53,458 nt of DNA, from positions 1 to 53,458 of the IMG/VR virus record IMGVR_UViG_3300023174_000221, one strand, 5' to 3'. The notes under the pieces are model-generated. The model saw only the letters and a program-made list of their open reading frames with translations, had not been told where the DNA came from and did not search any database. A program made the position numbers and the translations under genes. The number at the start of each line of letters is the position of its first letter. Positions within the stretch are counted from its first letter, which is position 1. This document shows, in pieces, positions 28,002-53,458 of the stretch. The stretch is from a virus.

Positions 28002-28009
28002 ATTGAAAT

Positions 28010-28037
28010 ATTATATTATAATTATACTAAAAGGCAA
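28010..28037 (-). promoter_or_regulatory. Early-type promoter, TTGCCT-16-TATAAT, 8 nt from ATG
   Basis: On the minus strand TTGCCT (28032-28037), 16 bases, TATAAT (28010-28015), then eight bases to the ATG at 28001. It is divergent from the oxygenase gene at 28041, which has an AAAGG ribosome-binding sequence six bases before its ATG. Confidence 0.6.
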
Positions 28038-28040
28038 TAC

Positions 28041-28604: not shown

Positions 28605-28605
28605 T

Positions 28606-29028: not shown

Positions 29029-29053
29029 ATTTACGCCATAGTTAGTTTAATAT
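29026..29053 (+). promoter_or_regulatory. Possible early promoter, TAGATT-16-TAATAT, 6 nt from ATG
   Basis: TAGATT (29026-29031), 16 bases, TAATAT (29048-29053), then six bases to ATG 29060. Each box has one mismatch to the pattern TTGATT/TATAAT-like used elsewhere, so it is weaker than the others. Confidence 0.45.
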
Positions 29054-29059
29054 TACATT

Positions 29060-29692
29060 ATGGGTGAGTTTAATTTAATGTTTTCTCCTTTTTACTGGAA
29101 AGCATATGTTGAAGAAACACCTCAAATCATTGACAAGTGTCTTGGTAGAATAGAAAAAAATGTCGATCAAGCCCCTGTAGCTATACCACCAGGCTGGGAG
29201 TGCGTACTACACAGTAGCTATCAGAGCAATAACCCAGACATGATTTTAGATTCCAAATATCTGCATTCCATATACTCAAATTATGTTGTCTCTTTTTTAA
29301 CAGAATACAGATTAAAACCTGGTCAATATAATATTCATGATCCCTGGTACAATGTTTTCTCGAAAAGCCATTTTCAAGAATTTCATTCACATTTACCATG
29401 TGATTTCTCTGTTGTACACTATGCAGTATTTGATGAAGAGGTCCACAATGCAACAACATTTATAAATCCCAATATCTTATTAGCCCAAGCCACAAAAGCT
29501 TATCGTCCAAGCTTATCCAATAAACTCGACGGCAAGCTATTAGAGCATTCCTGTTTTATGGAGTACTATACACCGCAAAAAATTAAACAGGGTGATCTTA
29601 TTATTTTTCCTTCCTATTTAAATCACTTCGTTAAACCAAATTCTTCAGATAAGAAGCGAATCACAATTACCTTCAATATTGAGATGATATAG
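29060..29692 (+). CDS. 2OG-Fe(II) oxygenase-like protein (210 aa)
   Basis: FQEFHSHLPCDFSVVHYAVF gives His109 and His111; TTFINP, KQGDLIIFPSYLNHFVKPN and KKRITITFNIEM give His189 and Arg200. All key positions of the PF13759-like fold are present. The first 90 residues differ from the other members. Substrate unknown. This gene and the two at 27200 and 28041 are similar in fold but far diverged in sequence, so they probably have different substrates. Confidence 0.8.
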   Translation: MGEFNLMFSPFYWKAYVEETPQIIDKCLGRIEKNVDQAPVAIPPGWECVLHSSYQSNNPDMILDSKYLHSIYSNYVVSFLTEYRLKPGQYNIHDPWYNVFSKSHFQEFHSHLPCDFSVVHYAVFDEEVHNATTFINPNILLAQATKAYRPSLSNKLDGKLLEHSCFMEYYTPQKIKQGDLIIFPSYLNHFVKPNSSDKKRITITFNIEMI

Positions 29693-30318: not shown

Positions 30319-30774
30319 ATGGTAATTGACAAAATTCACTTTGATTGGAACACAGTTAAGAGTCTTGTTTCCGAAATTCATGAAAAGACTTCTTCTTACG
30401 ATACAGGCAATATCGGCATCATTGGTATAAGTCGAGGCGGCCTGGTACCTGCGGTTCTCTTATCACACTACAAAGAAAACTCACACTTTTTCACCGTTGG
30501 TGTAAAAAGCTATTCTGGTCAAAATCGGGGCAAAGAATCTATCTACCAAGTACCTTCGATAGACGTACTCACAGATCTAGACACAATTTATCTTGTTGAT
30601 GATATTTGTGATACTGGCATGACGTTTAAACAATTAATTAATAAAACTTTTAATGGCTTAAAAGTACACACCATCTCTTTAACCTACAGATCGAACAGTT
30701 TATATCAACCCGATTTCTATGGCAAAGAAATTGTTGACGACTCTTGGGTTGTTTTTCCATGGGAAAAAGAATAA
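30319..30774 (+). CDS. Phosphoribosyltransferase (151 aa)
   Basis: The PRPP-binding motif is plain: TIYLVDDICDTGMTFKQL, with Asp94, Asp95 and the phosphate loop DTGMT at 98-102. GISRGGLVPAVLLSHY (37-50) is the first conserved loop of type I phosphoribosyltransferases, and the C-terminal (D)SWVVFPWEKE matches xanthine-guanine type enzymes. It would attach a purine base to PRPP, making a nucleoside monophosphate. The base is not certain. Phage copies may support salvage or modified nucleotide supply; its own early promoter suggests early expression. Confidence 0.8.
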   Translation: MVIDKIHFDWNTVKSLVSEIHEKTSSYDTGNIGIIGISRGGLVPAVLLSHYKENSHFFTVGVKSYSGQNRGKESIYQVPSIDVLTDLDTIYLVDDICDTGMTFKQLINKTFNGLKVHTISLTYRSNSLYQPDFYGKEIVDDSWVVFPWEKE

Positions 30775-35975: not shown

Positions 35976-38231
35976 ATGAGCACGCAAATTTTAGTTAAAA
36001 AAAGAGGTGGGGATTTAGAAAAATTTAATATAGATAAGATCCACAAAGTCATCTCTTGGGCAATTGAAGGCTTTGACGGAGTAAGTTTATCTGATATTGA
36101 GATAAACGCTAAATTAAACATGGTTGAAAATATTACAACCAGAGAAATTCATCAGAGTATTATTGAGGCAGCAGCAAATTTAATTTCAATTGAGAATCCA
36201 AACTATCAACATGTTGCAGGTCGCCTGTTAAACTATCAATTGCGCAAGGATGTGTGGGGTGGTAAACATCCACCGCGCCTAATTGACATGGTTAAAAACG
36301 GAATTCAAAAAAAGATTTATGACGCCACGCTTTTAGAGCAATACTCTGATGATGAACTCAATAAGCTTGGGGAATTTATTGACCATGAGAGAGATTTTTT
36401 ATTCACATACGCAGGCATAAAGCAGCTTTGTGACAAATATCTAATCAAAAATCGCATCAGCGGCATCATTTATGAGACGCCACAGTTTGCTTATATTTTG
36501 ATTGCCGCATATGCCTTTGCCAACTATTCCAAGGACATCAGATTGAATTATGTTAGACGCTTTTATGATGCCATTTCAAAGCATAAGATCAATCTACCCA
36601 CACCCATCATGGCTGGGGTACGTACACTGTCTCGTGGTTATGCTAGCTGCTGTTTGATTGGTGTTGATGATACCAAAGAGTCTATCACTGCTTCAGGTAC
36701 TGCTGTGTCACTTGCTACTGCTAGTCGTTGCGGCATTGGGATTGATGTGTCCAGAATACGTGCAATTGGTGCTGCAGTAAATGGTGGGTCTGTTGTACAC
36801 ACAGGAGTTATTCCGTTTCTGAAAATATATGAAGCATCTGTAAAAGCATGGCAACAAAATTCAATTCGTGGTGGTTCGGCCACAGTCAATGTTCAATGGT
36901 GGCATTATGAGATAGAAGATATTGTTGTTCTTAAAAACAATGCAGGGACCGATGATAATAGAGTGAGAAAACTTGATTATACTGTGGGTATGTCGAAGCT
37001 ATTCTATGATAGAGTACTAAAAAATGAGAACATTACATTATTTTCACCTCATGAAGTCCCGCAGCTGTGGGAAGCTTGGGGCACATCAAGATTTGACAAA
37101 ATGTATGAGGAGTGCGAAGGTGACAGGAAGATTAAATTTAAGAAGAAAATTTCTGCTCGAAAGTTATTCTCCCTCATTGTAAAAGAGCGCGTGGAGACAG
37201 GTCGAATCTATATTCTCAATGTGGACAGTGCTAATGAGCACGGTGCTTGGCTTGACCAGGTTACAATGTCAAATCTTTGCACAGAAATCATACACCCCTA
37301 CATACCACTGAAAGATTTCCACGACCCAGAAGCTGAGATTGGCATGTGCATTCTCTCTGCTGTCAACATGCTTGAGGTGAAGAATTGGTCCGATCTTGAA
37401 AAAGTATGTGACCTCATCGTTAGATTTTTGGATGAAATTGTAGACATTCAAGACTACTTCAACAAAGCAGCAGAAAATTTTGCTAAAAAACGTAGAAGCT
37501 TGGGTATCGGCATCACCAACCTCGCTGCATTCCTGGCCAAGCACGAATTGAGTTATTCTTCTCCAAAGACACTTCCTGTTGTTGATGAATGGATGGAGCA
37601 CTTTCAATACTATCTCCTCAAATCAAGTGTTCAGCTGGCCAAAGAAAAAGGAAAGTGTGAAAAATTTAACAGAACAAAATATTCCAAAGGGATACTTCCA
37701 ATTGACACATACAAAAAGAAAGTCAATGAGCTTGTGAAGCGTAAATTATCACTAGATTGGGAAGCACTACGCGAAGAAATTAAGGAGCACGGCATGAGAC
37801 ACAGCACAATGTCTGCAATTATGCCTTGTGAATCGAGTTCTGTGATACAAAACTCTACAAATGGTGTTGAACCAATCAGATCCCTCATAACCTACAAGAT
37901 GTCCAAAATGGGTAAGCTGCCAGTTCTTGTGCCTGGCATTGGCAAGTATCATGAAAATTATGAACTCGCTTTTAATCTTGCCGATAATACAGGGTTAATC
38001 AATGTCAATGCAGTGTTGCAGAAGTATATCGACATGGCGATTTCAACGAACATATATTACAATTACAATCATTACCCCAACCATGTTCTACCTGATGCCA
38101 AGGTAATGAAAGAACTCATGTATGCTTACAGCACAGGTTTAATTAGTTTGTATTACAATAATACCGATGATGGTGATAAGGAACAGTCTATGAAAGAAGA
38201 TTCATGTAGCAGTGGAGCCTGCAAGCTGTAA
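35976..38231 (+). CDS. nrdA: Ribonucleoside-diphosphate reductase large subunit, class Ia (751 aa)
   Basis: Full-length NrdA. The N-terminal ATP-cone region (1-95) is present. Active-site residues are visible: the Cys in GYASCC at 225/226, NLCTE with Asn433, Cys435 and Glu437, GMC with Cys458, and the Tyr pair of ISLYYNN near the C-terminus for radical transfer. The C-terminal shuttle CSSGAC is intact. It makes dNDPs from NDPs with NrdB. The leader (27 bases after ATAAATA at 35942) is longer than for most genes here. It is followed 20 bases later by nrdB. Confidence 0.97.
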   Translation: MSTQILVKKRGGDLEKFNIDKIHKVISWAIEGFDGVSLSDIEINAKLNMVENITTREIHQSIIEAAANLISIENPNYQHVAGRLLNYQLRKDVWGGKHPPRLIDMVKNGIQKKIYDATLLEQYSDDELNKLGEFIDHERDFLFTYAGIKQLCDKYLIKNRISGIIYETPQFAYILIAAYAFANYSKDIRLNYVRRFYDAISKHKINLPTPIMAGVRTLSRGYASCCLIGVDDTKESITASGTAVSLATASRCGIGIDVSRIRAIGAAVNGGSVVHTGVIPFLKIYEASVKAWQQNSIRGGSATVNVQWWHYEIEDIVVLKNNAGTDDNRVRKLDYTVGMSKLFYDRVLKNENITLFSPHEVPQLWEAWGTSRFDKMYEECEGDRKIKFKKKISARKLFSLIVKERVETGRIYILNVDSANEHGAWLDQVTMSNLCTEIIHPYIPLKDFHDPEAEIGMCILSAVNMLEVKNWSDLEKVCDLIVRFLDEIVDIQDYFNKAAENFAKKRRSLGIGITNLAAFLAKHELSYSSPKTLPVVDEWMEHFQYYLLKSSVQLAKEKGKCEKFNRTKYSKGILPIDTYKKKVNELVKRKLSLDWEALREEIKEHGMRHSTMSAIMPCESSSVIQNSTNGVEPIRSLITYKMSKMGKLPVLVPGIGKYHENYELAFNLADNTGLINVNAVLQKYIDMAISTNIYYNYNHYPNHVLPDAKVMKELMYAYSTGLISLYYNNTDDGDKEQSMKEDSCSSGACKL

Positions 38232-38238
38232 CGTTATA

Positions 38239-38245
38239 ATAAATA
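38239..38245 (+). promoter_or_regulatory. Late-promoter-like ATAAATA, 6 nt from the nrdB ATG
   Basis: TATAATAAATA is followed by ATACAC and ATG 38252. A TATAAT box overlaps it (38235-38240). It could let nrdB be made separately from nrdA. Confidence 0.45.
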
Positions 38246-38251
38246 ATACAC

Positions 38252-39316
38252 ATGAAGTCTGTTTTAAATATAAAGAATATTGATCATACCAAACAACCAT
38301 TGTTTTTTGGTGAAGATTTAAATTTGCAGCGTTATGATAAGTTCAAGTACCCTGTGTTTTTCGAGTTATTCAAAAAACAGGAAGAGTTCTTCTGGTGGCC
38401 CCATGAAATATCTCTGCAAAAAGATAGGCACGATTATCGTGGGTTAAAAGGTGAAGAACGGTTTGTGTTTGATAATAATTTAAAATTTCAAACTCTAGGA
38501 GACAGCATGCTGTCTCGTTCAATCCATTCTCTCAAGGACTATGTCTCTAATCCAGAACTGGAAATATGCATGAATACATGGCAGCGGTTTGAAGGCATTC
38601 ACAGCTACAGCTATTCTTATCTTCTTAACAATGTGCACCCACATGCTTCAGCATTTTTTGATAGCATCATGGAAGATGAAGAAATTGTTAGCAGGGCCAA
38701 TCTCATTCGCAATAACTTCGATAAAATCTTAGGTGATGATTCCAAGAAAGATATTAAAGAGAAAATCTTAGATTGTGTGTTAGCTGTCAATGTCATGGAG
38801 GGCCTAGTATTCTATGTCAGCTTTGCATGTTCCTTTTATTTTGGATACCGTGGAAAAATGGAAGGCAATGCAAAAATTATTAAATTTATTCAGCGTGATG
38901 AATCTCAACATTATGCAATTACTCAGAATCTTTTAAAGATCATGCGCGATGAGGACTGTGAGGGCTTCACACAAGTGGTAAAAAAGAATGAAGATAAGAT
39001 ATATGCTTATTATGAGCAAGCTGCCAAGAATGAGATCGAGTGGGCACAGTATCTCTTTAGCAAAGGTTCTCTGCTGGGATTAAATGCTGAGGTACTTGGT
39101 GGTTACACCAAGTGGCTGTGTGATAATCGGTTGCGCTCCCTAGGTTATAAAAAGATCTTTAATCAAAAAGGTAATCCCATATCTGGCTGGCTAGATAGTT
39201 ACTTGGATAGTAGCAAGGTACAAGTTGCGCCACAAGAAGCTGAAATAGGTGCATACAAGATAGCCGCCAGAGACACGACAATCTCAGAAGAATCATTTGC
39301 TGACATCAAATTGTAA
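38252..39316 (+). CDS. nrdB: Ribonucleoside-diphosphate reductase small subunit, class Ia (354 aa)
   Basis: All metal ligands and the radical Tyr are present: Asp84 in LGDS, Glu114 and His117 in RFEGIHSYSY, Tyr121, Glu183 in VMEGLVFY, Glu217 and His220 in RDESQH. The order and spacing match E. coli R2 (D84, E115, H118, Y122, E204, E238, H241). The protein holds the diferric-tyrosyl cofactor and feeds radicals to NrdA. The C-terminus EESFADIKL is the peptide that docks to NrdA. Forty bases before its end there is an in-frame-free overlap with nothing; the next gene starts 16 bases later. Confidence 0.97.
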   Translation: MKSVLNIKNIDHTKQPLFFGEDLNLQRYDKFKYPVFFELFKKQEEFFWWPHEISLQKDRHDYRGLKGEERFVFDNNLKFQTLGDSMLSRSIHSLKDYVSNPELEICMNTWQRFEGIHSYSYSYLLNNVHPHASAFFDSIMEDEEIVSRANLIRNNFDKILGDDSKKDIKEKILDCVLAVNVMEGLVFYVSFACSFYFGYRGKMEGNAKIIKFIQRDESQHYAITQNLLKIMRDEDCEGFTQVVKKNEDKIYAYYEQAAKNEIEWAQYLFSKGSLLGLNAEVLGGYTKWLCDNRLRSLGYKKIFNQKGNPISGWLDSYLDSSKVQVAPQEAEIGAYKIAARDTTISEESFADIKL

Positions 39317-40632: not shown

Positions 40633-40830
40633 ATGGTCAGCGCAGAAGTGCCATCACTTTCTACTACCGATCTCTACAGGTATTTTACAGCAATGAGAGA
40701 AGAGATTTTGAAACACAAGTGGTATGAAAGCGAGAGAGCTGGCAAGGATGTGGGGTTTGAATACGCGCTAGTTAACTGGACAATGAGATTTCGCAATGCT
40801 TGGCAACCCAAAACTAAGGCCCCTTCTTAG
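40633..40830 (+). CDS. Small conserved phage protein (65 aa)
   Basis: The sequence EEILKHKWYESERAGKDVGFEYALVNWTMRFRNAW resembles a small family common in T4-like phages with a KWxESExAGxDxGxxxA(L)xxW pattern. Function unknown. The 3' end overlaps the convergent gp5-like gene by 17 bases. Confidence 0.65.
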   Translation: MVSAEVPSLSTTDLYRYFTAMREEILKHKWYESERAGKDVGFEYALVNWTMRFRNAWQPKTKAPS

Positions 40831-43132
40831 CATTATTTTGTGATGTTGCCACGTTACGCTCCACCCCGTTAGTGCCAGCAGCAGCATCTCTTACATCAGA
40901 ATTGCTTGCAACAAGCGTTAAGGGTAGATTGCGGAAATGATGACTGTGTGGATATGTAAACAAGCAATTGGGTGAAGGTCTGCCGTTTCCACTTGGTGTG
41001 CGTGCATATACACGAAGCCAATTGCCACATGAATCACTCACATAGTCGCCCGGGCATGCGGTCACATATCCAATCACTGGATATTCAGAAAGTGAAAACA
41101 CCTCATCATTAGTTTGACCATATATCTTGGTGTCTTCGGTTTCCTGAATCTCAACTGGAGCAGTAATATGATTAATGGTGAGTTCACCTTCTATATGTGC
41201 CCCGCCGCCAACAATTAGATTTCTACTAACACCCAGACTGCTGTCCACCAGCACTTGTTTCATTTGTCTCTGCTTAAACACCATTATATCTGCTGTTACA
41301 GTCAAGCGCTTGCCACCATCAATATTAGTTTCACTGCTACTGGCTAAATTCATTTGCTCACCGCTCATGTTAATAACTGTTCCACCAATCTGTACAGGTC
41401 CAAAGGACTTCATGCTTATGCCACCTGCTCCAACTTGCACAGTATATCTATTGCATACATTTAGTGTATAGTTACCACCAGGAAGATCATCCACATGAAC
41501 ATATTCAATAAGAGGGCTAGCTTCTTGGTTTTCAAATACACCAAGGGTACCAATTGTAACAGCAGAATTATAAATTTTTCCCTGACTATCAACACGAATA
41601 CTACCAAAATCATTCATTATTGTTCCAATAGTCTCAATCTTATGCTTGGTGATATCCACAATCTCATGTCCGCCAAGACCTAAATCTGCTTCTGCTTTGG
41701 CTATACTAGATATCTTTGAATTGAGCAATGCCTGCAATTGCTGCTTCGCAGGATCAGGCGACCATTCACCGCCCATGCTACTAACACTCTTGCCTGTGCC
41801 ACCACAACTTGGACATTTTCCTGTGGGTGGAAAGGTCAGATCCTGAGGCTTACCAGGTTGCTGCAGTCCAATTGCATCCACAGTATCATACAGACTCACA
41901 CCGTCTCTGGCTTGATAACCGCCACCACCTGCAGTAATACTTGGAATTCCAACAGCCGCAAAAGGATTGTTTTTGAGCGTACTATATTTTCTATTCTGCT
42001 GGCACACAGGGCACTTACCGTAACTACCTGATTGCTTTTGTTCTACACTATTAAATAACTCTTTATTCTTTACTCGCTGTGTTTCAAATCGCTGTTTAAC
42101 ATCAGCTACTCCTTGCATGATGTCTTTCCACTTCTGAACAGCACCAGAATCAAGACTACCAATTTTGCGATACACATCTCCACGAATTGTTATATCTTTG
42201 TCACCATCCACATAGAAGTTATCTGATCCTCTCACTGTTTCAAACTTATCTCCCTGTATCAAATGCTGTTCATTTGCTGTGGCTAAGTATATTGTTGTTG
42301 GATTGGTAAAAATAATGGAACTGCCACTGTAGTGACTAAGTTTCAAAGCCTCTTTGTTATCTGTGTTTGTAAATTCTAACGTTCCACCCTTCTGATTAAT
42401 GAGATATTTGTTGCGATATATCTCCACATTATGATCTGTTTCGCCACCAGGCTTTTTGTTTTCATAAGAATCTGGATAATCTGTAAACTCATACACACCT
42501 TGCCACTCTTCTGCACCATGACTAGCAGCAAAGTAAATTGGATACATAGGATTACCATCAGTAAAGAACACCCACAAATGTGACCCTACAGGTGGTATTG
42601 AGAAAGATCCTTTTGCTTTATTACTATAGGAAGCTGGGCGATAGCTCTGACCATATACATTAGCTTTATTTGTACCGGAGGCGCCTGACGATACAAATGC
42701 ATCTTTTAAAGCAAAATCCCCTTTCTCGAGAATATTAGCCGGCTTTTCACCTGTACCATCAGGGTTTTGACTATATTTGGTTGGTTGAAAATTATCCTTA
42801 GGCACAGAAGAATCATAGTCATTGCTATCACTAATTGTAGATTTGCGATTGGAACTATTATACCTGCCTGAAGAAACCTCGCCTGCTAGGGGCGAAGCAC
42901 AGTCTGCCCATGGTAGAACATCCTTCAATTCATCCACAACATCATCTATTGGACTATCTATATTCTTACCTAAAAATTTAAATTTCTTATCTTTAAATGT
43001 GGCATTCCAATTTTTATATACACTGGGTGACAAATGTGGTATAAAGATCTTTACACGCCCTTTCTTTAGCGGATCATTATTCGCTACAACTATGCCAAGG
43101 TAATTTCCGTAAAGTTTGTTTTGATCTGTCAT
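40814..43132 (-). CDS. 5: gp5-like baseplate central spike protein (772 aa)
   Basis: The N-terminal OB fold is visible (LYGNYLGIVVANNDPLKKGRVKIFIPHL), with its second half FSIPPVGSHLWVFFTDGNPMYPIYF near residue 185. Repeats of short beta strands (GTLEFTNTDNKEALKLSHYSGS, then IYLATANEQHLIQGDKFETVRGSDNFYVDGDK, then the TVQVGAGGISMKSFGPVQIGG part) fit the triple-stranded spike. There is no T4-type lysozyme domain. Two CxxC pairs (CPVC near 373, CPSC near 439) resemble a zinc ribbon inserted in the middle. The C-terminal HSHHF could bind metal at the spike tip. The next gene starts in an ATGA overlap and encodes a 3D-domain enzyme. Confidence 0.8.
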   Translation of the reverse strand: MTDQNKLYGNYLGIVVANNDPLKKGRVKIFIPHLSPSVYKNWNATFKDKKFKFLGKNIDSPIDDVVDELKDVLPWADCASPLAGEVSSGRYNSSNRKSTISDSNDYDSSVPKDNFQPTKYSQNPDGTGEKPANILEKGDFALKDAFVSSGASGTNKANVYGQSYRPASYSNKAKGSFSIPPVGSHLWVFFTDGNPMYPIYFAASHGAEEWQGVYEFTDYPDSYENKKPGGETDHNVEIYRNKYLINQKGGTLEFTNTDNKEALKLSHYSGSSIIFTNPTTIYLATANEQHLIQGDKFETVRGSDNFYVDGDKDITIRGDVYRKIGSLDSGAVQKWKDIMQGVADVKQRFETQRVKNKELFNSVEQKQSGSYGKCPVCQQNRKYSTLKNNPFAAVGIPSITAGGGGYQARDGVSLYDTVDAIGLQQPGKPQDLTFPPTGKCPSCGGTGKSVSSMGGEWSPDPAKQQLQALLNSKISSIAKAEADLGLGGHEIVDITKHKIETIGTIMNDFGSIRVDSQGKIYNSAVTIGTLGVFENQEASPLIEYVHVDDLPGGNYTLNVCNRYTVQVGAGGISMKSFGPVQIGGTVINMSGEQMNLASSSETNIDGGKRLTVTADIMVFKQRQMKQVLVDSSLGVSRNLIVGGGAHIEGELTINHITAPVEIQETEDTKIYGQTNDEVFSLSEYPVIGYVTACPGDYVSDSCGNWLRVYARTPSGNGRPSPNCLFTYPHSHHFRNLPLTLVASNSDVRDAAAGTNGVERNVATSQNNAKKGP

Positions 43133-44261: not shown

Positions 44262-45068
44262 ATGAAGGTATCACATGAGTCTCCCATTTCTATCTTAGAC
44301 TCATCCAGAAAATACAACGATTTTGACTACTGTCTGGTACATCTTCTGGATCAATACCCTACATATAATGATTTCTTTAAATTTGCCAGAATTACTTACA
44401 ATAGAGAAGTATTACTTGACAATTCTATTTTTGAACTGGGCAAAGCTTTTGATAGTCACAAGTTCTGGGTAAAGGTTAAAGAAATTAAACCCAACATGTT
44501 TATTGTACCGGATGTACTTGAAGATACTCAAGATACAATACAAAGCTTTAAAGCATTTGAAAATTACACACTTAATATTAAGGAGAGCTTTTTAACAAAA
44601 GCTATAGGCGCTGTGCAGGGTAAAAATTGGCATGAATTAAAGGAGTGTTACAAATTTATGTCTGACAACGCAGATATGATTGCAATAAGTTTTGATTTTA
44701 GTTATTATCAAGCTATCGGTGAAGGTAAAACCTATCTTGAAAAGTGGTGCACTGGTCGCCAGCGCTTTATAACCGATTTAATAAGTAATGGGATATGGAA
44801 TTGGAGCAAACCTCATCATTTACTTGGTTGTTCTTTGGCTAAGGAGTTTAGATTTTATGTTGATAGAAATATTCACAATATTGTTAGTTGCGATACCAGC
44901 AATCCCGTTGTTGCTGCTATACATGGATTAAAATACGATGCGGATTACGGCTTACAAAGCAAGCCGAATACTAAGTTAGCAGATCTAATAGAGTATGAAT
45001 TTACTAACGATCAACTAGATCTTGTGGATTATAATACTTCTATGTTTAAGAAAATCATACGCAGATGA
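44262..45068 (+). CDS. TGT-superfamily base transglycosylase, DpdA-like (268 aa)
   Basis: The protein looks like a compact relative of tRNA-guanine transglycosylases and phage DpdA. VLLDNSIFELG (50-60, Asp53) fits the (T/L)DSGGFQ base-binding loop; IVPDVLEDTQDTI (81-93) resembles the TGT D-x-P segment; HHLLGCSLAKEF (185-196) fits the (L)G(V/G) loop; IVSCDTSNPVVAAIHG (207-222) fits the FDCVLPTR...HG region, with Asp211 as the likely nucleophile. The zinc site CxCxxC...H of tRNA enzymes is absent. DpdA homologs swap guanine in DNA for a 7-deazaguanine. Assignment is from motifs only. It overlaps the formyltransferase gene by four bases. Confidence 0.7.
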   Translation: MKVSHESPISILDSSRKYNDFDYCLVHLLDQYPTYNDFFKFARITYNREVLLDNSIFELGKAFDSHKFWVKVKEIKPNMFIVPDVLEDTQDTIQSFKAFENYTLNIKESFLTKAIGAVQGKNWHELKECYKFMSDNADMIAISFDFSYYQAIGEGKTYLEKWCTGRQRFITDLISNGIWNWSKPHHLLGCSLAKEFRFYVDRNIHNIVSCDTSNPVVAAIHGLKYDADYGLQSKPNTKLADLIEYEFTNDQLDLVDYNTSMFKKIIRR

Positions 45069-45640
45069 GACCTTGGATTACTTTTTTTTCGCAAACAGGA
45101 ACTGAAATACATAACCTATCCAATGGACTGGGTATATATCCAGATTTGATAGTAACAAATAAATCAGATTTAAAGGGTATTAATGAGGGATTACTACACA
45201 CAACACAATTTAGGGAACAAAAACTGAATAAAACTATCTTAACATTTCTGCCAAGTAAACCCGTTACTGGTAACTACATAAAGATTTTAAACAATTTTAA
45301 AAACCCTCTGATAACACTGCATGGTTATCTGAGAATTATTCCAAAAGAAATATGTGAACGATATGAAATATACAATCTGCATCCAGGTCTAATCAACAAA
45401 TATCCCAGCTTAAAAGGGTTCAATCCACAGGAACGTGCATTTACAAGTGGCCACAAGGATGCAGGGTGTGTTATACATAAAGTAACCCCAGGCGTTGACG
45501 AAGGAGAGATTGTTGCTTCAGGTGAAATTAGTATTGAGGATCTTACCCTAGCAGAAGTATACACCGAGCTTCATGGTTGTGCATTTAATGTGTGGAAAAA
45601 CTTCCTAACAGAGTATAATATAATTCAAAGTGAATCCTGA
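45065..45640 (+). CDS. PurN-like formyltransferase (191 aa)
   Basis: PLITLHGYLRIIPKEICERYEIYNLHPGLINKYPSLKG carries the GART-type signature: Asn104 and His106 in YNLHPGL, and Asp145 in GVDEGEIV, equal to E. coli PurN Asn106, His108 and Asp144. LHGYLRI corresponds to the LAGFMRI folate-contact loop. The family moves a formyl group from 10-formyl-THF to a primary amine. The N-terminal 75 residues deviate strongly from PurN; the phosphoribosyl-binding (G-S-N-L) loop near the N-terminus is not seen. Because it is coupled to a DpdA-like gene and followed by queF, its substrate may not be GAR. It overlaps the next gene by 11 bases. Confidence 0.8.
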   Translation: MRPWITFFSQTGTEIHNLSNGLGIYPDLIVTNKSDLKGINEGLLHTTQFREQKLNKTILTFLPSKPVTGNYIKILNNFKNPLITLHGYLRIIPKEICERYEIYNLHPGLINKYPSLKGFNPQERAFTSGHKDAGCVIHKVTPGVDEGEIVASGEISIEDLTLAEVYTELHGCAFNVWKNFLTEYNIIQSES

Positions 45641-45977
45641 AGAACTCATCAAGCTAGTTGAAGCCACGTATCCTGAAACGTGCAGAGAATTTAAGAAAAT
45701 TCAGAGTGAACAATACAATACTTTCTGTAAAAAACAAAATGATTACGGGCCGCACAATATTAGCCTAGGATCTGACCTACATAGAGAAGAGGATATTGTT
45801 GCATCCATTTCTGCTATCGTAGTGCGACTCAATGATAAGATTCAGAGATTAATCAACATGGTATTGAGAAAGAAGACGTTTGAAACGGCCAATGAACCTA
45901 TTTTTGATGCTTTTAGCGACACTGCAGTGTACTGTATTATTGCCGAAATAGTCAAGAGAAAGAAATGGTGCAAATGA
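45630..45977 (+). CDS. DUF1599/Nmad1-like protein (115 aa)
   Basis: The start is GTG 45630, inside the end of the formyltransferase gene. QYNTFCKKQNDYGPHNISLG, then REEDIVASISAIVVRLNDKIQRLINMVL, then FDAFSDTAVYCIIAEIVKRKKW match the DUF1599 (nucleotide modification associated domain 1) pattern: KxxDYGxxN, a helix with R-x-xDKxxRL, and a (D)T-x-Y-x-x-I helix. The family is associated by genomic context with phage base modification. It overlaps the next frame by four bases (ATGA). Confidence 0.75.
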   Translation: MNPEELIKLVEATYPETCREFKKIQSEQYNTFCKKQNDYGPHNISLGSDLHREEDIVASISAIVVRLNDKIQRLINMVLRKKTFETANEPIFDAFSDTAVYCIIAEIVKRKKWCK

Positions 45978-46117
45978 AGCAACTCCGCACCAAGCATACC
46001 TGGGTAGATGATGACAATCATCCGCTCAAGGGATATCCTATTGATGAGCTAGACTTTATCGAAGAGACCTGGCTACAGATTATCAAGAGAAAAATTAGTG
46101 AGATTTTTAGAAAATAG
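45974..46117 (+). CDS. Small protein (47 aa) in the modification island
   Basis: ATG 45974 overlaps the stop of the Nmad1-like gene; the stop is TAG at 46115-46117. The sequence starts MKQLRTKHTWVDDDNHPLKG and ends with a basic helix (LQIIKRKISEIFRK). I do not recognise the family. Coupled translation supports it being real. Confidence 0.55.
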   Translation: MKQLRTKHTWVDDDNHPLKGYPIDELDFIEETWLQIIKRKISEIFRK

Positions 46118-46118
46118 C

Positions 46119-46146
46119 TTTACTTCTTTAATTTGTCCAGTATAAT
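46119..46146 (+). promoter_or_regulatory. Early promoter, TTTACT-16-TATAAT, 6 nt from ATG
   Basis: TTTACT (46119-46124), 16 bases, TATAAT (46141-46146), then six bases to ATG 46153. It gives the kinase and queF a second promoter inside the island. Confidence 0.65.
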
Positions 46147-46152
46147 TGTGTT

Positions 46153-46731
46153 ATGATTTTTACTTTTACAGGTCCTCAGTGTTCGGGTAAGACTACTCTT
46201 TTAAAGAAGTGCAAGGAGTATTATGGTTCTAAGCTATGCTATATTGATGAAGTAACTAGGCTAATTAAACGTTGGCATAATTGTGATATAAATGAAGAAG
46301 GTGCTAATGATGTAACGCAGACATTAATTTTAAATAAAGAGTTTGAGAATTTATTTTACAATTATAAAGGATTTAATTTTCAAGGCATATTGCATGATCG
46401 CTGCTTGATGGATGGAATGGTTTATACAAGTTATTTTGCCGGTAGTAGACTAAATGATTTTCCTGTATCTAATAGTTTAGGTTTGTTATACTATACAAAT
46501 TATATTAAAAAGTATGATCATATCTTTTATCCGAGTCCTCATGATGTTCCGCTGGTTGATGATGGTGAGAGAAGTATTAATAAAGAATTTAGAGATGCAA
46601 TTATTGATAAATATGAGAATTTTTGGTTGTCAGATGAAAGGTTAAAAGGAAAGGTAACTATTTTAAAAGGAACAGTGGAAGAACGCATGGAAGCAATTAA
46701 AATAAAACTTAATGAATACGGAATTAGATAA
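46153..46731 (+). CDS. P-loop kinase, AAA_28/nucleotide-kinase-like (192 aa)
   Basis: The Walker A motif is GPQCSGKTTLL (7-17). CYIDEVTRLI (29-38) and LHDRCLMDGMVYTSYF (80-95) match the DR-containing second motif of NadR/Ttd14-type and nucleotide kinases. IFYPSPHDVPLVDDGERS (about 123-140) matches the (P)-x-x-x-P-(L/F)-x-x-D-G-x-R segment of phage AAA_28 kinases. It would phosphorylate a nucleoside, nucleotide or modified base; the substrate is unknown. Its 3' end overlaps queF by 20 bases, so both are probably made together. Confidence 0.75.
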   Translation: MIFTFTGPQCSGKTTLLKKCKEYYGSKLCYIDEVTRLIKRWHNCDINEEGANDVTQTLILNKEFENLFYNYKGFNFQGILHDRCLMDGMVYTSYFAGSRLNDFPVSNSLGLLYYTNYIKKYDHIFYPSPHDVPLVDDGERSINKEFRDAIIDKYENFWLSDERLKGKVTILKGTVEERMEAIKIKLNEYGIR

Positions 46732-47632
46732 TAGTAATATATCAAAGCATCTTGGTAAAATAACCGGGTATAAGTGCACCTATGACCCCTCACTCTTAGT
46801 TCGTGAGCCTAGAGCTAATAACAGGAAGCATCTAGGTATTAGTGATGAGAATCCTCCTTTTTGTGGTTATGATGTTTGGAATGCTTACGAGGTATCATGC
46901 CTAACAAGTGAGGGGATGCCAATTGCGGCTATAGCCAAAGTTGTCTACCCTGCTACAAACAAATATATTGTTGAGTCCAAGTCCATCAAGCTCTACATGA
47001 ATTCGTTCAATATGGAGAAATATCAAGGCAATATTATTAATATATTACAACAGCTTGAGGCCGTGATGGAGAATGATCTTTCTAAATTGCTTGAAACAGA
47101 TGTTAAGGTATGTGTCAGGCTTACAAAAGCAATTGACGATGCCATGCATTACCCGCCCCTATTTCCTACCGCGCTATATCCCACGCTTGAAAATAATATT
47201 GATGTAACGACTATTAAGTCCCGCGGCTACAAAGAGGATCCTAAGCTACTTGGCTGGTTGGAAGGTGACTCGAATAAAGTACAGCGCTTTCATTCAGCGC
47301 TATTAAAGAGTAATTGCAGGGTCACATCTCAACCGGATTGGGGGGATGTTTATATTCATTACAAAGGACCTTACGAACTCAATCAAACCTCTTTATTGCA
47401 GTACATTGTTTCGTTCAGAGATGAATGTCACTTCCATGAGGAGATTTGCGAGACAATTTATAAGCGGCTGTATGATCTGGTCAAGCCAAAAGAATTGATG
47501 GTATCGTGTCTGTATGTGAGACGCGGTGGCATTGATATTAACCCTATCAGAGCCAATAGCCCAGAACTCTTGAAGCAGAACGGTGCCATGTGGGATAAGT
47601 GGAAGTATTTTACTAAGACTGTTAGGCAGTAA
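46712..47632 (+). CDS. queF: QueF, NADPH-dependent preQ0 reductase, long (E. coli-type) form (306 aa)
   Basis: The whole sequence follows QueF. TYDPSLLVREPR (23-34) and GYDVWNAYEVSCL (52-64) open the N-terminal half; IVESKSIKLYMNSFN (86-100) holds the substrate-binding ESKS; LLKSNCRVTSQPDWGDV carries the catalytic Cys202 and Asp209; FHEE (241-244) and YVRRGGIDINPIRAN (268-282) close it. Cys202 forms the thioimide with preQ0; NADPH reduces it to preQ1. No other queuosine gene lies in this window. The context is a DpdA-like gene and Nmad1. It uses the first in-frame ATG and ends next to a convergent gene. Confidence 0.92.
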   Translation: MNTELDNSNISKHLGKITGYKCTYDPSLLVREPRANNRKHLGISDENPPFCGYDVWNAYEVSCLTSEGMPIAAIAKVVYPATNKYIVESKSIKLYMNSFNMEKYQGNIINILQQLEAVMENDLSKLLETDVKVCVRLTKAIDDAMHYPPLFPTALYPTLENNIDVTTIKSRGYKEDPKLLGWLEGDSNKVQRFHSALLKSNCRVTSQPDWGDVYIHYKGPYELNQTSLLQYIVSFRDECHFHEEICETIYKRLYDLVKPKELMVSCLYVRRGGIDINPIRANSPELLKQNGAMWDKWKYFTKTVRQ

Positions 47633-48064: not shown

Positions 48065-51000
48065 GTGAATCTATACAATGTGCTTCTAAACAATAGAATT
48101 CCTTTTGTTTTGCATGAAAGCAGTGATTCAGAGAATGTTATATATTGTAAGTCATTTTCTGATTATCTGTTCAATGTGGGTACGTTTACCACCAGAACCA
48201 AAGAAGTTATACTTGAATATGTTGTAGATAATGCTGAAAAATATGTAGTTGCTGATGTAACTTTTGACAATGGTGAGTGTTACAAGGATGTAAGATTCAA
48301 AGTGGTTGTTAATGAAAATACTGAAACACCATACTCCACCATCAACTTAAATCTTCTTAGCAACAAGACACAGGTAGCTGCACCCCAACAATCACAGCAA
48401 ATAGTTGAAGATGTTGAGGAGATAGTTGAAGAGCCCGTATCTACTCATATATCAGCTCCCATTATTGAAACTCCAGATTATACGGAAACCATTAATGAGA
48501 CTTTAAAACTACAAAAGAAACTTAATGTAGAGAAAGAAGAAATTAGAAAACAGAAAATTATTCTAGAAAAACAAGATCTTTTAAATAAAAAATTACAAGA
48601 ATATAAGCAAGAACTATTAGAAGAATATGTAACTGCTGTTGATAAGCAAAAGCAGCTGCTTGGTGCACATTTAAAGGAAACCTTGACAATAGCCGAACAC
48701 GATCTTAGTGAACGCATAACCAACACATTTAATGAATATAGCAATCAACTAGAAACTTATCAAAACAAGTCTAAAGTAGATCAACTTGAATTTATTATTG
48801 AAAAAATTAACGATTCTATTGTTGATATTAAAGTTGATCTGAACAGCTTGGTATCAAATAAATTTAATCAAGAGCAAGACATCTTACTAGAAGCGCTACA
48901 TGCAAAGTCTCAACTGTTACAAGAAAAATATGAGCAAAAATTATTATTGGAGCTTGAGAAATACAAAGAAACATTATTTGAAGAATTTCGCTTGTCATCA
49001 CAAGAAGCTATATTACAAACTCTAGCTCAAAAGAAAGATTTAACTGAACAGCAAATTATTATAGCTTTTGATAATAAAGAAAAAGAATTTAATTCGCACT
49101 TTGAAACAAGACTTAAAAATACTACCTTGGAGCTGGACAGCATTGTACAAGAATTTTCAAATAAGCTTCCAGCCATCAGCGATGATATGTCTTTATTGGA
49201 AGCCAAGCTTAAAGACCTACTGGAAGAAAGAAAGAAATCTGATGAAACAGGTAAGTTTAATACCTCGCAGCAGAAATATATTGCTGATACCGCACAATAT
49301 TGGGCTCGACGCATACTAGATTTGGGTGGTGGTGGAGGATCTGTTGCAGTTCAATATGCCAATGGTGGTACTATGAATGGTAATTTGAATGTAAATGGTA
49401 GCTACTTGTCTGGTGGTGTTGATTTGTTAAATATATTTAGCGGTGGCGGTCTGACGGATAGATTAATCAATGGTTCTTATCAAGTGGTACTGAGTAGCAA
49501 CAGTACGCTAATTTTCCCTGGCAGCGGTACCTTAACAGATACCGCTTCAGTTGCTCAAGTAGGTTTTGAAATTAACGGTTTATTTAATTATGCAGGGCAA
49601 ACTTCAGTTGGTCTTAATACTTTTAATGCAGGATTAGGCAACCCTGCCTGGGGACCAGCAATCCAGGCAAACCCCACAGACTATGAAATTGTATTCAATG
49701 GTGGTTTGGTCGCCACTATTGCCAGTGCGGCAGGCACAGCTTCTCCTGGGGCACGATGGGATTTTACAGGCTCTTGGCCTGCAAATCCCACTGGAGCTCC
49801 AGTCACCATTCGTGCAAAAAATTATACCCCTGGTGTGCAAGGAACAGATGGCATAAGACTTGCCTCAAATAATAATTCTTGGACATTTGGCACAGATGGC
49901 AATCTAACATTTCCAACTGGTAGTAAAATATCCAAAGGCTATCCAGGACAGACTCAAGATGGCAGCAGTTGGTTTGTAGCACCTGCAGGGGATTGGGGAG
50001 GACTTGCCAGCGCAGATGGTGAACAGTATGTACAGATAGGCAATAACAGTCCTATCCTTATTGGTACAAATTGGCCGGATAGTGCTCATGAATGGACATT
50101 TGGCACAGATGGTACCACATTATTTCCAAATCAGGCCATTGATGGCGGCACAGCACCAATTGAATTAAAGAGTCGTAGTTGGAGTCAACTGACATATAAC
50201 AATAACGATATGACCCCAGCACCCAACAAAAATCACAGCACTACATTTTTTGTAGAAGGTGGTGATGCGTTGTTGGAAATATTCCGTTGGGATAATGATG
50301 GTGTTCTGCAGCATCGTCAATGGACATTCTCAAGTGATGGTAGTTTAACATTCCCAGACAACACCATACAAGCAACAGCATTCACAGGCATACCGGCTAA
50401 CATTGCTTATACCAACCAAGACACTATATTTGAAAAAAATGTAACCATACAAGGCAATCTAACAGCATTAGGTACCAGCACATTTCAGAATACTATCTTC
50501 ACAACCACCAGTGCGTTGAGTGTTTATAATACAGGACCAGGACCTGCGTTATATGTATTTCAGGCTGCTGGTCCCTATGATGTAGCCAGCTTTTATGATG
50601 GTGACGGTGTCGAGGTATTGCATGTGGGCAATGCACAGGGTGGAGGCAATCCCTTAGGTCAAGTAGGTATAAACACAAGCTTCCCATCAGCTGAATTAAC
50701 TGTAAATGGTGCCATTAGTAGTAATGGTAATATAAAAGCTGGTGGGCAATTTTCATTCCAGAATGGTGATTATGTCTCATCAACTGATGGGACTGGTAAT
50801 TTTGTAGACTTAAGGAATGCTAATTACTATCAACTTAATTTTGTTAATACAGGTGTAAATGGCGCAGGTGATTGGCATGTGGGTAATTATCTTCCATTTG
50901 GAGCGTTCGGTTGGTATAATACTTATTTAGGTAGAAGCATGATGGATTTAATAGATGGCACCCAGGGAGGTCATGACAAGGGTGTGTATTTTTATGATAA

Positions 51001-53458
51001 TGTTAGTATTGGTGCAGGTTCGCTCACAGTTGATGGTGCCATTAATAGCAATAGTACAATTGCCGCTGAAGGTGGCAACAGCAATAATTGGAATAGTAAT
51101 TATACCACTACACAATCAAACAGTGCCAATTGGATATTGGATGGTGGCAATGCCAAGGGTGCAAATTTGACAATCGGGACTAATGATAATAATAGCTTAA
51201 TACTTAAAGCTAGTAACATACCTCTTGTTAATATTACACCAGAAAACAATGTAGGCATAGGGTATACAAGCAGCTCCCCTGCAGTTAATCTTGTGGGATA
51301 TAATTTTAATAATGCAAGAAGCACAATCACCACCACAGTTAGCGTTTATTCACAGTACCCAGGTGTGAGTGCAGGTAGCATGGATGCTGCAACTGGTATA
51401 GCGGGAGTAGCTAATTATACTCTGGGTTGGGGCACCTCATCTTACTCACCTGCTGCTACAACCCCTGCTTTGGCCATAGCTGCAAATGAATATATAAGAA
51501 TTCCTATATATCCTCTGGCTAGCGGTGATTATAATATCGCTATAAATGGTGTATCTGCTCCTTTCTTCGTTAATAGATCTGCTAGTGGTGCACAAAGATT
51601 TGCTTTATTATACAGCACTCTGCCCACACCAGTGTCTTACACAACAATCCTAGATACTGCTATACCTGCTACTGCAACCGACCTAGCGCCAGCGATCAAT
51701 GCTGTATTAAATGCATCCAACATTACAATTACATCTGCTACAACAGGATATTTTTATCTAGTACCCTACAATGCAACATCAACTGGGGGTCAATTTCGCT
51801 TACCAAACACCAGTGCAGTTAGTCGAGACATTCAGTTTACAGGGTATGTGGAAATACCTGAACCTGTTATTCCTAGTGAGAGGCTCACTGTTGTTGGCAA
51901 TATAAGCAGCAGCAATATTGTTTATGGTTCCAGATTATCAGTCAGCGGTCCATTTGCAAATGGTGCTGTGTATGTTGCAAATTCGAACTTACAAATTGGA
52001 ACTAATGATGCATTTAATTTAAATTTAGAAACAAATAATACCAACAGAATTACTATATTGAGTTCAGGTGAAATAACTTTAAACCCAGTAACTATCACAC
52101 CTGCATTGAGCTCCATGCAAAATGTTCTGAATGTGAGAGGCACAGCAGTGGTATGCAGCGACATATCCACCCTTATTAGCACACCAGCACTGGACCCATC
52201 CAGTCCAGGTCAATTCTCTGCAGGAGGCATGCTCATGGGTCAAAATGAAGGAGGTGCATACATGGGCCGGATAGGAGTAAGAGAGAGCAGCTGGCAGGTG
52301 ATATCAGGCACAGAAGGAACAAATTGGGTTGATAGAACAGGATCAGGCAGTAGAAATTGGATCAGTGTGGCCATGTCTTCTGATGGTAGAATACAGACGG
52401 CTGTTGCAGGTTATGGCTTTATCTACACATCTTATGATTATGGTGTGACCTGGACTGAAAGAACAGGAGCAGGCGGTAACAATTGGTTTAGAGTGGCCAT
52501 GTCTTCGGATGGCAGAATACAGACGGCTGTTGCAGGACCAGCTGACTTCATCTACACATCTTATGATTATGGTGCAACCTGGACTGCAAGGACACAAGCA
52601 GGCAGCAGACCGTGGATTAATGTGGCTATGTCTTCTGATGGCGAAATACAGACCGCTGTCACAAATGGAGGCTTTATATACACATCTTATGATTATGGTG
52701 TGACCTGGACGGAAAGAACAGGGGCAGGCAGTAAAAATTGGTTTGGAGTGGCCATGTCTTCAGATGGCAGAATACAGACAGCTGCAGGACCCACACCAGG
52801 CAACATCTACACCTCTTATGATTATGGTGCAACCTGGATTGTTAGAGATACCAGCAGACCGTGGTACCATATAGCCATGTCTTCAGATGGCAGAATACAA
52901 ACAGCTGTTACGACAGGTTACATATATAGTTCTTATGATTATGGTGCAACCTGGACTGCAAGGACACAAGCAGGCAGCAGAGTATGGTCCGCAGTGGCCA
53001 TGTCTTCAGATGGCAGAGTACAAACAGCTGCTGAAGGAGGAGGTTACATATACACTTCCTATGATTATGGCATAACGTGGTTTATAGGAACATCAAATTT
53101 TATTAGTTGCAAAGATGTGGCCATGTCTTCTGATGGCAGAATACAGACAGCTGCCGGTACGTCGGGGTCTTATATTCGCACCTCTTATGCAACCATAGTA
53201 ACACCTGGTCCTGTTACAGTATTAAACTCTATTAGTTCTACTGGGGCAATATATGCATTAAACGGAAACAGCAACAATTGGTCTAGTGTTTACAATTCTT
53301 ATAACAGCATTAGTAGCAGATACACTACATTAGATTACCTGTCCTCTAATTTTATACGTCTTGGTGGGTTGTATGCAGGTCCTAATCCTGGCAGCATAAC
53401 TGCTACAACGCCTGTATCTGCTATGTATGGCATATATGTTGAACCAGTATCTGGGTAT
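48065..53458 (+). CDS. Giant tail-fibre protein with coiled coil and Asp-box propeller, 3' end cut by window
   Basis: The frame is open from GTG 48065 to the window end (1798 codons seen). Residues 1-110 are a beta-rich head. Residues about 135-420 form a long coiled coil rich in Lys, Glu, Gln and Leu, ending YWARRILDLGGGGGS. Then come fibre modules: two to three WTF-x-(T/S)DG-x-LTFP repeats, LTVNGAIS units like those of the fibre at 11775 (VGINTSFPSAELTVNG), and ENNVGIGYTSS. Residues 1430-1710 hold seven propeller repeats, each with AMSSDGxIQTA; six have the Asp-box SYDYGxTW. After this the fibre shaft resumes (YALNGNSNNW). It is probably a host-recognition fibre. TTAAATA lies four bases before the GTG. 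Confidence 0.85.
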   Translation, partial: MNLYNVLLNNRIPFVLHESSDSENVIYCKSFSDYLFNVGTFTTRTKEVILEYVVDNAEKYVVADVTFDNGECYKDVRFKVVVNENTETPYSTINLNLLSNKTQVAAPQQSQQIVEDVEEIVEEPVSTHISAPIIETPDYTETINETLKLQKKLNVEKEEIRKQKIILEKQDLLNKKLQEYKQELLEEYVTAVDKQKQLLGAHLKETLTIAEHDLSERITNTFNEYSNQLETYQNKSKVDQLEFIIEKINDSIVDIKVDLNSLVSNKFNQEQDILLEALHAKSQLLQEKYEQKLLLELEKYKETLFEEFRLSSQEAILQTLAQKKDLTEQQIIIAFDNKEKEFNSHFETRLKNTTLELDSIVQEFSNKLPAISDDMSLLEAKLKDLLEERKKSDETGKFNTSQQKYIADTAQYWARRILDLGGGGGSVAVQYANGGTMNGNLNVNGSYLSGGVDLLNIFSGGGLTDRLINGSYQVVLSSNSTLIFPGSGTLTDTASVAQVGFEINGLFNYAGQTSVGLNTFNAGLGNPAWGPAIQANPTDYEIVFNGGLVATIASAAGTASPGARWDFTGSWPANPTGAPVTIRAKNYTPGVQGTDGIRLASNNNSWTFGTDGNLTFPTGSKISKGYPGQTQDGSSWFVAPAGDWGGLASADGEQYVQIGNNSPILIGTNWPDSAHEWTFGTDGTTLFPNQAIDGGTAPIELKSRSWSQLTYNNNDMTPAPNKNHSTTFFVEGGDALLEIFRWDNDGVLQHRQWTFSSDGSLTFPDNTIQATAFTGIPANIAYTNQDTIFEKNVTIQGNLTALGTSTFQNTIFTTTSALSVYNTGPGPALYVFQAAGPYDVASFYDGDGVEVLHVGNAQGGGNPLGQVGINTSFPSAELTVNGAISSNGNIKAGGQFSFQNGDYVSSTDGTGNFVDLRNANYYQLNFVNTGVNGAGDWHVGNYLPFGAFGWYNTYLGRSMMDLIDGTQGGHDKGVYFYDNVSIGAGSLTVDGAINSNSTIAAEGGNSNNWNSNYTTTQSNSANWILDGGNAKGANLTIGTNDNNSLILKASNIPLVNITPENNVGIGYTSSSPAVNLVGYNFNNARSTITTTVSVYSQYPGVSAGSMDAATGIAGVANYTLGWGTSSYSPAATTPALAIAANEYIRIPIYPLASGDYNIAINGVSAPFFVNRSASGAQRFALLYSTLPTPVSYTTILDTAIPATATDLAPAINAVLNASNITITSATTGYFYLVPYNATSTGGQFRLPNTSAVSRDIQFTGYVEIPEPVIPSERLTVVGNISSSNIVYGSRLSVSGPFANGAVYVANSNLQIGTNDAFNLNLETNNTNRITILSSGEITLNPVTITPALSSMQNVLNVRGTAVVCSDISTLISTPALDPSSPGQFSAGGMLMGQNEGGAYMGRIGVRESSWQVISGTEGTNWVDRTGSGSRNWISVAMSSDGRIQTAVAGYGFIYTSYDYGVTWTERTGAGGNNWFRVAMSSDGRIQTAVAGPADFIYTSYDYGATWTARTQAGSRPWINVAMSSDGEIQTAVTNGGFIYTSYDYGVTWTERTGAGSKNWFGVAMSSDGRIQTAAGPTPGNIYTSYDYGATWIVRDTSRPWYHIAMSSDGRIQTAVTTGYIYSSYDYGATWTARTQAGSRVWSAVAMSSDGRVQTAAEGGGYIYTSYDYGITWFIGTSNFISCKDVAMSSDGRIQTAAGTSGSYIRTSYATIVTPGPVTVLNSISSTGAIYALNGNSNNWSSVYNSYNSISSRYTTLDYLSSNFIRLGGLYAGPNPGSITATTPVSAMYGIYVEPVSGY
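52361..53190 (+). repeat. Seven tandem repeats of 123-129 bp encoding Asp-box (BNR-like) units
   Basis: The repeat unit is marked by ATGTCTTC(T/G/A)GATGG, whose ATG lies at 52373, 52499, 52628, 52754, 52877, 53000 and 53123 (steps of 126, 129, 126, 123, 123, 123). The units remain close at DNA level. Each encodes AMSSDG(R/E)(I/V)QTA, a Gly loop, IYTSYDYGxTW and a short variable loop. The last unit has lost the Asp-box (TSYATIVTPG). Seven units fit a seven-bladed beta-propeller. Confidence 0.8.

Follow-up and report, generated by a model that had tools for sequence, protein, structure and literature searches.

A gene island predicted to make and install a 7-deazaguanine base in the DNA of an uncultivated T4-like phage

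What would a phage do with a transglycosylase homologue, a formyltransferase, a nucleotide kinase and a nitrile reductase encoded side by side? The question is raised by six plus-strand open reading frames (ORFs) at positions 44262 to 47632 of IMG/VR virus record IMGVR_UViG_3300023174_000221, a 53,458-base fragment that was analyzed as a whole and is called the window here; it is the entire record, and no contig extends beyond it. Sampled as environmental DNA, the virus is T4-like, with matches to a portal protein (E=2e-102) and a tail sheath stabilizer; the portal shares only ~32% identity with those of known phages, cyanophages being prominent among its top matches. The reading we favor, with a probability of about two in three, is that the genes of this island produce a 7-deazaguanine base and place it in phage DNA: preQ1 would be formed, exchanged for guanine and given an N-formyl group. 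Sequence and predicted folds show the enzyme families, active-site residues, gene order and co-occurrence; from these we infer what each enzyme acts on, what is formed, how far guanine is replaced and what the kinase does.

In the scheme proposed here, preQ0 would be supplied by phage enzymes encoded elsewhere in the genome (FolE, QueD and QueC in relatives) or by the host, QueF would convert it to preQ1, and a DpdA3-type barrel related to tRNA-guanine transglycosylase (TGT) would take guanine out and put preQ1 in. The formyltransferase would then move the formyl group of 10-formyltetrahydrofolate to the aminomethyl nitrogen, either before or after insertion, to give N-formyl-preQ1, and the freed guanine would be recycled by a phosphoribosyltransferase (PRTase), by the GMP reductase of relatives and perhaps by the kinase. 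A first-pass annotation of the same DNA had already proposed that preQ1 enters the phage DNA and is then modified further; this proposal is supported, as are its DpdA-like enzyme and its complete QueF. If correct, a DNA-modification system already known from phages also occurs in a large, uncultivated group of T4-like phages.

A transglycosylase of the DNA-guanine type

The first gene of the island, dpdA, matched no Pfam family above cut-off, and its sole strong family, phrog_19058, is a PHROG of unknown function. Among isolated phages, relatives are encoded by Flavobacterium phage immuto and by the Campylobacter phages of the genus Firehammervirus (43-45% identity for the latter), with a CP220/immuto range of 44-47%, and a remote homologue (27%) is present in Campylobacter phage CC_R7. 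The protein is 44.7% identical to the enzyme of the Firehammervirus CP220 over 97% of its length, which identifies it as a homologue of Firehammervirus-type DpdA, and the immuto homologue is annotated as a DNA guanine transglycosylase. We take DpdA3 to be the class name for this protein and the CP220-type enzymes. Proteins of Bacillus phages BSTP5, BSTP8, BSTP10, BSTP12 and BSP7 (H148-H152) show a weak likeness to the CP220 transglycosylase (27-28% over 72%, E ~1e-4) and might represent a further DpdA class.

DpdA sequence profiles found no relative in the PDB, and the likeness to TGT came from the predicted fold. An AlphaFold model built with 37 relatives as input (predicted local distance difference test score [pLDDT], 94; predicted template modeling score, 0.90) was compared with known structures by VIA-align, and the best 50 rows were all tRNA-guanine transglycosylases (Z 18.0-18.4, root mean square deviation [rmsd] ~3, ~231 residues aligned), including 2z1x (Z 18.4, rmsd 2.9, 231 aligned); Foldseek agreed on TGT (E=2.8e-9). 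The model thus takes the form of a TGT-type (beta/alpha)8 barrel, and the assignment survived the structural comparison that had been named beforehand as its refutation test. Within this barrel, D53 (LDNSIFE), D84 (VPD), Q119-G120 (VQG) and D211 (DTSNP) are invariant across the 37 relatives and are candidate counterparts of the TGT motifs DSGGFQ, FDE, IQG and DCVMPT, with the putative nucleophile assigned by position. The mapping follows motif and order, with weak hhalign support (GAVQGK is placed opposite GIIQGS of TGT in a weak alignment), so that the active-site numbering is not secure. The CxCxxC...H zinc motif of tRNA-type TGTs was found in 0 of the 37 family members, and the protein is therefore not a tRNA TGT; TGT-like features and a missing zinc site were what the first-pass annotation had noticed in this gene. 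Charge was uninformative as a sign of nucleic acid binding, the median isoelectric point of DpdA3 being 5.76 versus 5.97 for Escherichia coli TGT. Guanine exchange in DNA is predicted for this DNA-guanine transglycosylase homologue.

The same evidence bears on the idea that the island only raises queuosine in host tRNA and leaves phage DNA unmodified. QueF is also used in queuosine synthesis, and some phages have preQ0 genes but no DpdA (PMC6884629). Nevertheless, no TGT zinc site is present in the transglycosylase, and its closest relatives come from phages whose DNA is fully substituted; we consider this idea very improbable. In the genus Firehammervirus, all deoxyguanosine (dG) is replaced by 7-deazaguanine derivatives (PMC10273834), and by analogy replacement may be complete in the phage studied here as well. 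In bacteria, DpdA3 is nearly absent, with five contigs from metagenome-assembled genomes or assemblies among 84,980 species; three of the five adjoin the same kinase and QueF.

The company of DpdA3, and the candidate formyl acceptor

To describe the gene company of DpdA3, IMG/VR was scanned with DpdA, the kinase and the formyltransferase, which gave 116 distinct DpdA3 loci, 80 of them with at least 6 kb downstream. Among these 80, the kinase was found in 79, QueF in 77, the formyltransferase in 70, a DUF1599-like gene in 49, GMP reductase in 28 and the PRTase in 16, the last two counts being minima limited by the available flanks. Scans anchored on the kinase and the formyltransferase are biased toward loci bearing those genes; the DpdA-anchored scan alone gave the kinase in 60/61, QueF in 57/61 and the formyltransferase in 47/61. 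Formyltransferase, kinase and QueF occurred jointly in 69 of the 80 loci, kinase and QueF in eight, the kinase only in two and the formyltransferase only in one (L073). In 70 of 73 loci the genes kept one colinear order and shared a strand, the remaining three differing only in the position of GMP reductase; because the order recurs in this way, the island is not a chance arrangement, and the gene set singled out in the first-pass annotation proves to be a recurrent one. The kinase was present in 26 of 27 whole records searched and is kept where formyltransferase and QueF are missing near dpdA (CP220, L078 and L079), and related marine-type loci combine DpdA3, kinase and QueF with no formyltransferase. 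L073 aside, the formyltransferase is thus nested within the presence of QueF, a pattern that would follow if the formyl group goes to the aminomethyl amine that QueF makes.

Some loci depart from the common layout. L073 (5870-7746), the sole DpdA3 locus of the 80 without the kinase, has no QueF either; it encodes a longer DpdA (309 aa), and its formyltransferase gene is followed by one for a MazZ-like dGTP diphosphohydrolase. A radical-SAM-like gene with a CxxxCxxC motif (~440 aa, one cluster) occurs in eight loci (L009, L031, L028, L037, L038, L045, L046 and L074), lying between kinase and QueF in L009 (13440-14759), L028 and L031 (12560-13885). In L019 (2662-5574), two ORFs (425 and 525 aa) are inserted between dpdA and the formyltransferase.

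The formyltransferase has N104, H106 and D145 invariant in 28 aligned relatives, is 47.8% identical to the immuto protein, and finds PurN structures with its profile in the PDB (E=2.6e-17). It could in principle be a metabolic purN-type gene, that is, a glycinamide ribonucleotide transformylase that boosts purine synthesis and has nothing to do with a modified base: it is a Formyl_trans_N member, its best structural matches are PurN, and purN is an auxiliary gene in cyanophages. However, the protein scores 55.9 bits against the PurN equivalog TIGR00639, far below the cut-off of 150.1, and is not filed as PurN, and DpdA, kinase and QueF accompany it in all 54 formyltransferase-anchored loci with enough flank; we therefore consider a purN-type role improbable. 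Its co-occurrence with these genes suggests instead that it is a candidate DpdN that would formylate preQ1 or dPreQ1. Cui et al. reportedly described, in 2023, N-formyl-preQ1 in phage DNA, complete replacement by DpdA3 and DpdN, a predicted formyltransferase; the likeness to DpdN is that of a formyltransferase in a DpdA3/QueF phage island. That study is cited in PMC11515303 and PMC12783734.

QueF is complete, as the first-pass annotation had stated: the QueF_N and QueF domains are both present, and Cys202, Asp209 and E88-S89-K90-S91 (the ESKS motif) are invariant in 24 relatives. In favor of the scheme above, dPreQ1 is present in Streptococcus phage Dp-1 and in HVTV-1, both of which bear QueF-type genes (PMC6884629). 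The protein is a divergent member of its family and, by sequence, could be of either the reductase or the amidino type. A rival possibility is that the pathway stops at unformylated dPreQ1, or ends in deoxyarchaeosine with QueF acting as QueF-L, the formyltransferase having a different acceptor. The marine-type loci without a formyltransferase fit such a product, as does the ambiguity between QueF and QueF-L. The formyltransferase, however, keeps synteny with DpdA and is hardly ever seen in a locus that lacks QueF, and we regard an unformylated end product as rather unlikely.

Several points weigh against the formation and insertion of N-formyl-preQ1. The DpdA profile aligned only weakly with E. 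coli TGT in hhalign (probability 5%, E=0.008), so it is the predicted fold and the places of the motifs that make the case for kinship with TGT. QueF scores 261.4 bits, under the NCBIfam equivalog cut-off of TIGR03138 (293.45), and QueF and QueF-L of phages are hard to distinguish by sequence (PMC6884629). The acceptor of the formyltransferase is suggested by its gene company alone. Finally, CP220, the Firehammervirus dADG system, resembles the window in having a dpdA homologue followed by a kinase but has neither QueF nor formyltransferase near dpdA, so that the full replacement seen there need not carry over.

The kinase and the timing of base exchange

The kinase combines a P-loop and a DR motif with a kinase profile, which place it among the thymidylate/deoxynucleotide kinases; the earlier calls of a P-loop kinase and a formyltransferase both held up. 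Its best PDB match is thymidylate kinase 2pbr (E=4.6e-6), followed by a deoxynucleoside kinase and the ribosylnicotinamide kinase domain of NadR. In the phage collection, tblastn matches were confined to Campylobacter phages and Flavobacterium immuto phages, each a DpdA3 phage or the second contig of one; since phrog_2107, the thymidylate kinase PHROG that the protein matches, may well be broader, we make no claim that such kinases are restricted to DpdA3 phages. The near-constant pairing of DpdA3 with this kinase, together with nearby genes for GMP reductase, PRTase and dGTP-type hydrolases, raises the question of how a transglycosylase replaces every guanine, and whether it does so in finished DNA or in the nucleotide pool.

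Perhaps the kinase phosphorylates GMP or dGMP in guanine recycling. Alternatively, with odds well short of even, it might phosphorylate a modified deoxynucleoside monophosphate (dNMP), which would require DpdA3 to act before replication and to exchange guanine for a 7-deazaguanine on dGMP or another free nucleotide. A pyrophosphohydrolase would then turn dGTP into dGMP, DpdA3 would swap the base, the kinase would phosphorylate the resulting dNMP once more, and the nucleoside diphosphate kinase of the host and the polymerase would do the rest; freed guanine would pass to GMP by PRTase and on to IMP by GMP reductase, akin to the Z-genome route. If true, this would explain how dG can be replaced completely and would give the Z-genome route an equivalent for G, at odds with the post-replicative view that is now accepted.

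Such a nucleotide-level exchange agrees with the kinase in 79/80 loci and its retention in CP220, L078 and L079, with GMP reductase in or near the cluster in 28/80, and with dGTP-hydrolase-type neighbors (MazZ-like PF18909 and nucleoside triphosphate pyrophosphohydrolases [NTP-PPases] of the PRA-PH type) in several DpdA3 records. In Z phages, MazZ yields dGMP from dGTP (PMC8342488), a thymidylate kinase homologue of RB69 is presumed to act in arabinosyl-hmdCMP synthesis (PMC8056088), and the complete replacement of dG in Firehammervirus differs from the 0.02-1.7% of G given for Dp-1 and nt-1 (PMC6884629). On the other hand, all characterized TGT and DpdA enzymes use polynucleotides, and DpdA is treated in the literature as acting at the level of nucleic acid (PMC12783734). 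PRTase and GMP reductase are compatible with either timing because guanine is freed in both, and we have accordingly downgraded them as evidence for a nucleotide-level exchange. An NTP-PPase fold of the DUF1599-like protein is not established. Crippen et al. reportedly detected no dADG phosphates in Campylobacter phage infections in 2019, which also counts against this route. On balance, we judge exchange on free nucleotides unlikely, albeit the most serious challenge to insertion into finished DNA.

The DUF1599-like protein was called Nmad1/DUF1599-like in the first-pass annotation, a likeness that is weak, its DUF1599 match (E=0.09) reaching 13.6 bits versus the Pfam gathering threshold of 25; distant phage relatives are annotated as DUF1599. 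Its AlphaFold model has four helices (pLDDT 88). In VIA-align, AF_0060 came top (Z 7.6), followed by helical bundles and the all-alpha dNTP pyrophosphatase DCTPP1 (Z 5.6), and Foldseek gave no match to the model below E 2.5. Because Z values this low carry no weight among helical proteins, a role as NTP pyrophosphohydrolase of the all-alpha, MazG/HisE-like kind is a guess. A homologue in Microcystis phage Mel-JY01 (L311, 6782-11920), a phage without a DpdA3 hit, lies ~3.5 kb from a GMP reductase/IMPDH gene in a region that also encodes S-adenosylmethionine synthase and two glycosyltransferases; perhaps these genes belong to another kind of DNA hypermodification in which guanine nucleotides are likewise managed.

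The scale of guanine release can be estimated by arithmetic: at 39% G+C, a 160-kb genome holds ~62,000 guanines, and 100 fully replaced progeny would free ~6 million, on the order of 10 mM in a 1-fL cell. Because each base swap frees one guanine, PRTase and GMP reductase make sense as guanine disposal, be the swap in DNA or on nucleotides. The PRTase occurs in 12 of 19 related records besides the window. In many close relatives, GMP reductase (NF003966, E=5e-101) is flanked by the genes for the formyltransferase and the DUF1599-like protein, and in others it lies elsewhere in the record, as in that of L019; it matches 73 phage records, and since most of these are phages without DpdA3, its presence alone is not diagnostic. 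The MazZ-like dATP/dGTP diphosphohydrolase domain PF18909 was found in the islands of L049, which also bears a relative of LOG-type nucleotide nucleosidase, and L073, and in the record of L060; the PRA-PH type NTP-PPase was found in immuto, L075, L077, L207 and L210, immediately upstream of dpdA in immuto and L075-L077. Two GMP reductase/IMPDH matches have in-frame stops or are split (G005:C1:35381-36379, L030 record; G013:C1:57190-59814, L079 record), possibly through an insertion or gene decay.

A phage-encoded preQ0 supply, which the first-pass annotation had allowed for, is borne out in the 19 related records (queC 19/19, queD 17/19, folE 16/19). The window has no folE, queD or queC, an absence that is uninformative in a 53-kb fragment. 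Radical_SAM matches stand beside queD in immuto and in the records of L075 and L077; several other relatives had none at that threshold, no QueE-specific model being used.

Known systems, layout and neighboring features

The first-pass annotation had called the island a candidate new and unfamiliar combination, which did not hold, as Flavobacterium phage vB_FspM_immuto (MW353176) carries the same ordered set (dpdA, formyltransferase, thymidylate-kinase-like gene, queF; 29-48% identical per gene) with DpdA and QueF annotated. Immuto differs in having queD, queE, PRTase, folE and the PRA-PH type NTP-PPase directly upstream of the island, whereas in the window the DUF1599-like gene and a 50-aa ORF are part of the island, and the PRTase gene lies ~13 kb from it. 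What is new is the gene context, namely, the DpdA3-kinase pairing and the guanine/dGTP genes. In the literature compared, which did not include Cui et al. 2023 or Crippen et al. 2019, no discussion of a kinase or GMP reductase in a DpdA3 setting was found, and we claim no priority.

The DpdA/DpdA2 systems of 9g, nt-1 and Dp-1 share with the window a TGT-superfamily transglycosylase and preQ0-pathway genes but have another DpdA sequence class and partial replacement, with no kinase or formyltransferase in the passages compared. The Z-genome cluster (purZ, mazZ, datZ) is alike in logic only, with dGTP/dGMP-managing genes beside the modifying enzyme and a MazZ-like family in a few DpdA3 contigs; it modifies A rather than G, no PurZ was seen in the window island, and no homology is shown.

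The six genes are tightly coupled, as first described, with overlaps of 4-20 bases except for a 35-base gap before the kinase (Table 1). The dpdA start, ATG 44262, is the same as in homologues. The 50-aa ORF had no match in family searches, and its counterparts are confined to the near relatives L005, L010, L016 and L019. No DNA-level relative of the island was found among 50,697 phage records.

Table 1. Island genes and associated features of the window
Feature	Position	Strand	Basis
DpdA3-type DNA-guanine transglycosylase homologue (268 aa)	44262..45068	+	phrog_19058 E=4e-57; homology; predicted TGT fold; invariant residues
Formyltransferase, candidate DpdN (preQ1/dPreQ1 N-formyltransferase)	45065..45640	+	Formyl_trans_N E=1.6e-17; homology to immuto
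Small all-helical protein, weakly DUF1599/Nmad1-like	45630..45977	+	phrog_1485 E=1.5e-13; sub-threshold DUF1599
50-aa ORF, closest relatives only	45965..46117	+	no family match; counterparts in L005, L010, L016, L019
P-loop nucleotide kinase, thymidylate-kinase-like	46153..46731	+	AAA_28 E=1.6e-12; phrog_2107 E=2e-21
QueF, preQ0 nitrile reductase, two-domain type (306 aa)	46712..47632	+	QueF_N E=8e-34; QueF E=3e-23
Purine-type phosphoribosyltransferase (PRTase), candidate guanine salvage	30319..30774	+	Pribosyltran E=7e-11; phrog_8995
Ribonucleotide reductase large and small subunits (context)	35976..39316	+	Ribonuc_red_lgC E=5e-125; Ribonuc_red_sm E=3e-52

Downstream of the island, a frame of at least 1,798 aa (48065-53458) runs open to the contig end; it has no PHROG match, and relatives follow the island in L016, L068 and L072. 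Upstream, a 772-aa baseplate OB-domain protein (gp5/VgrG-like; 40814-43132) carries two CPxC zinc-ribbon-like pairs (GKCPVCQQN and GKCPSCGGTG), which are unusual in a baseplate protein, and a run of small genes at 27200-29692 shows matches to the 2OG-Fe(II) oxygenase-like phrog_81 and to PHROGs named "ferrochelatase."

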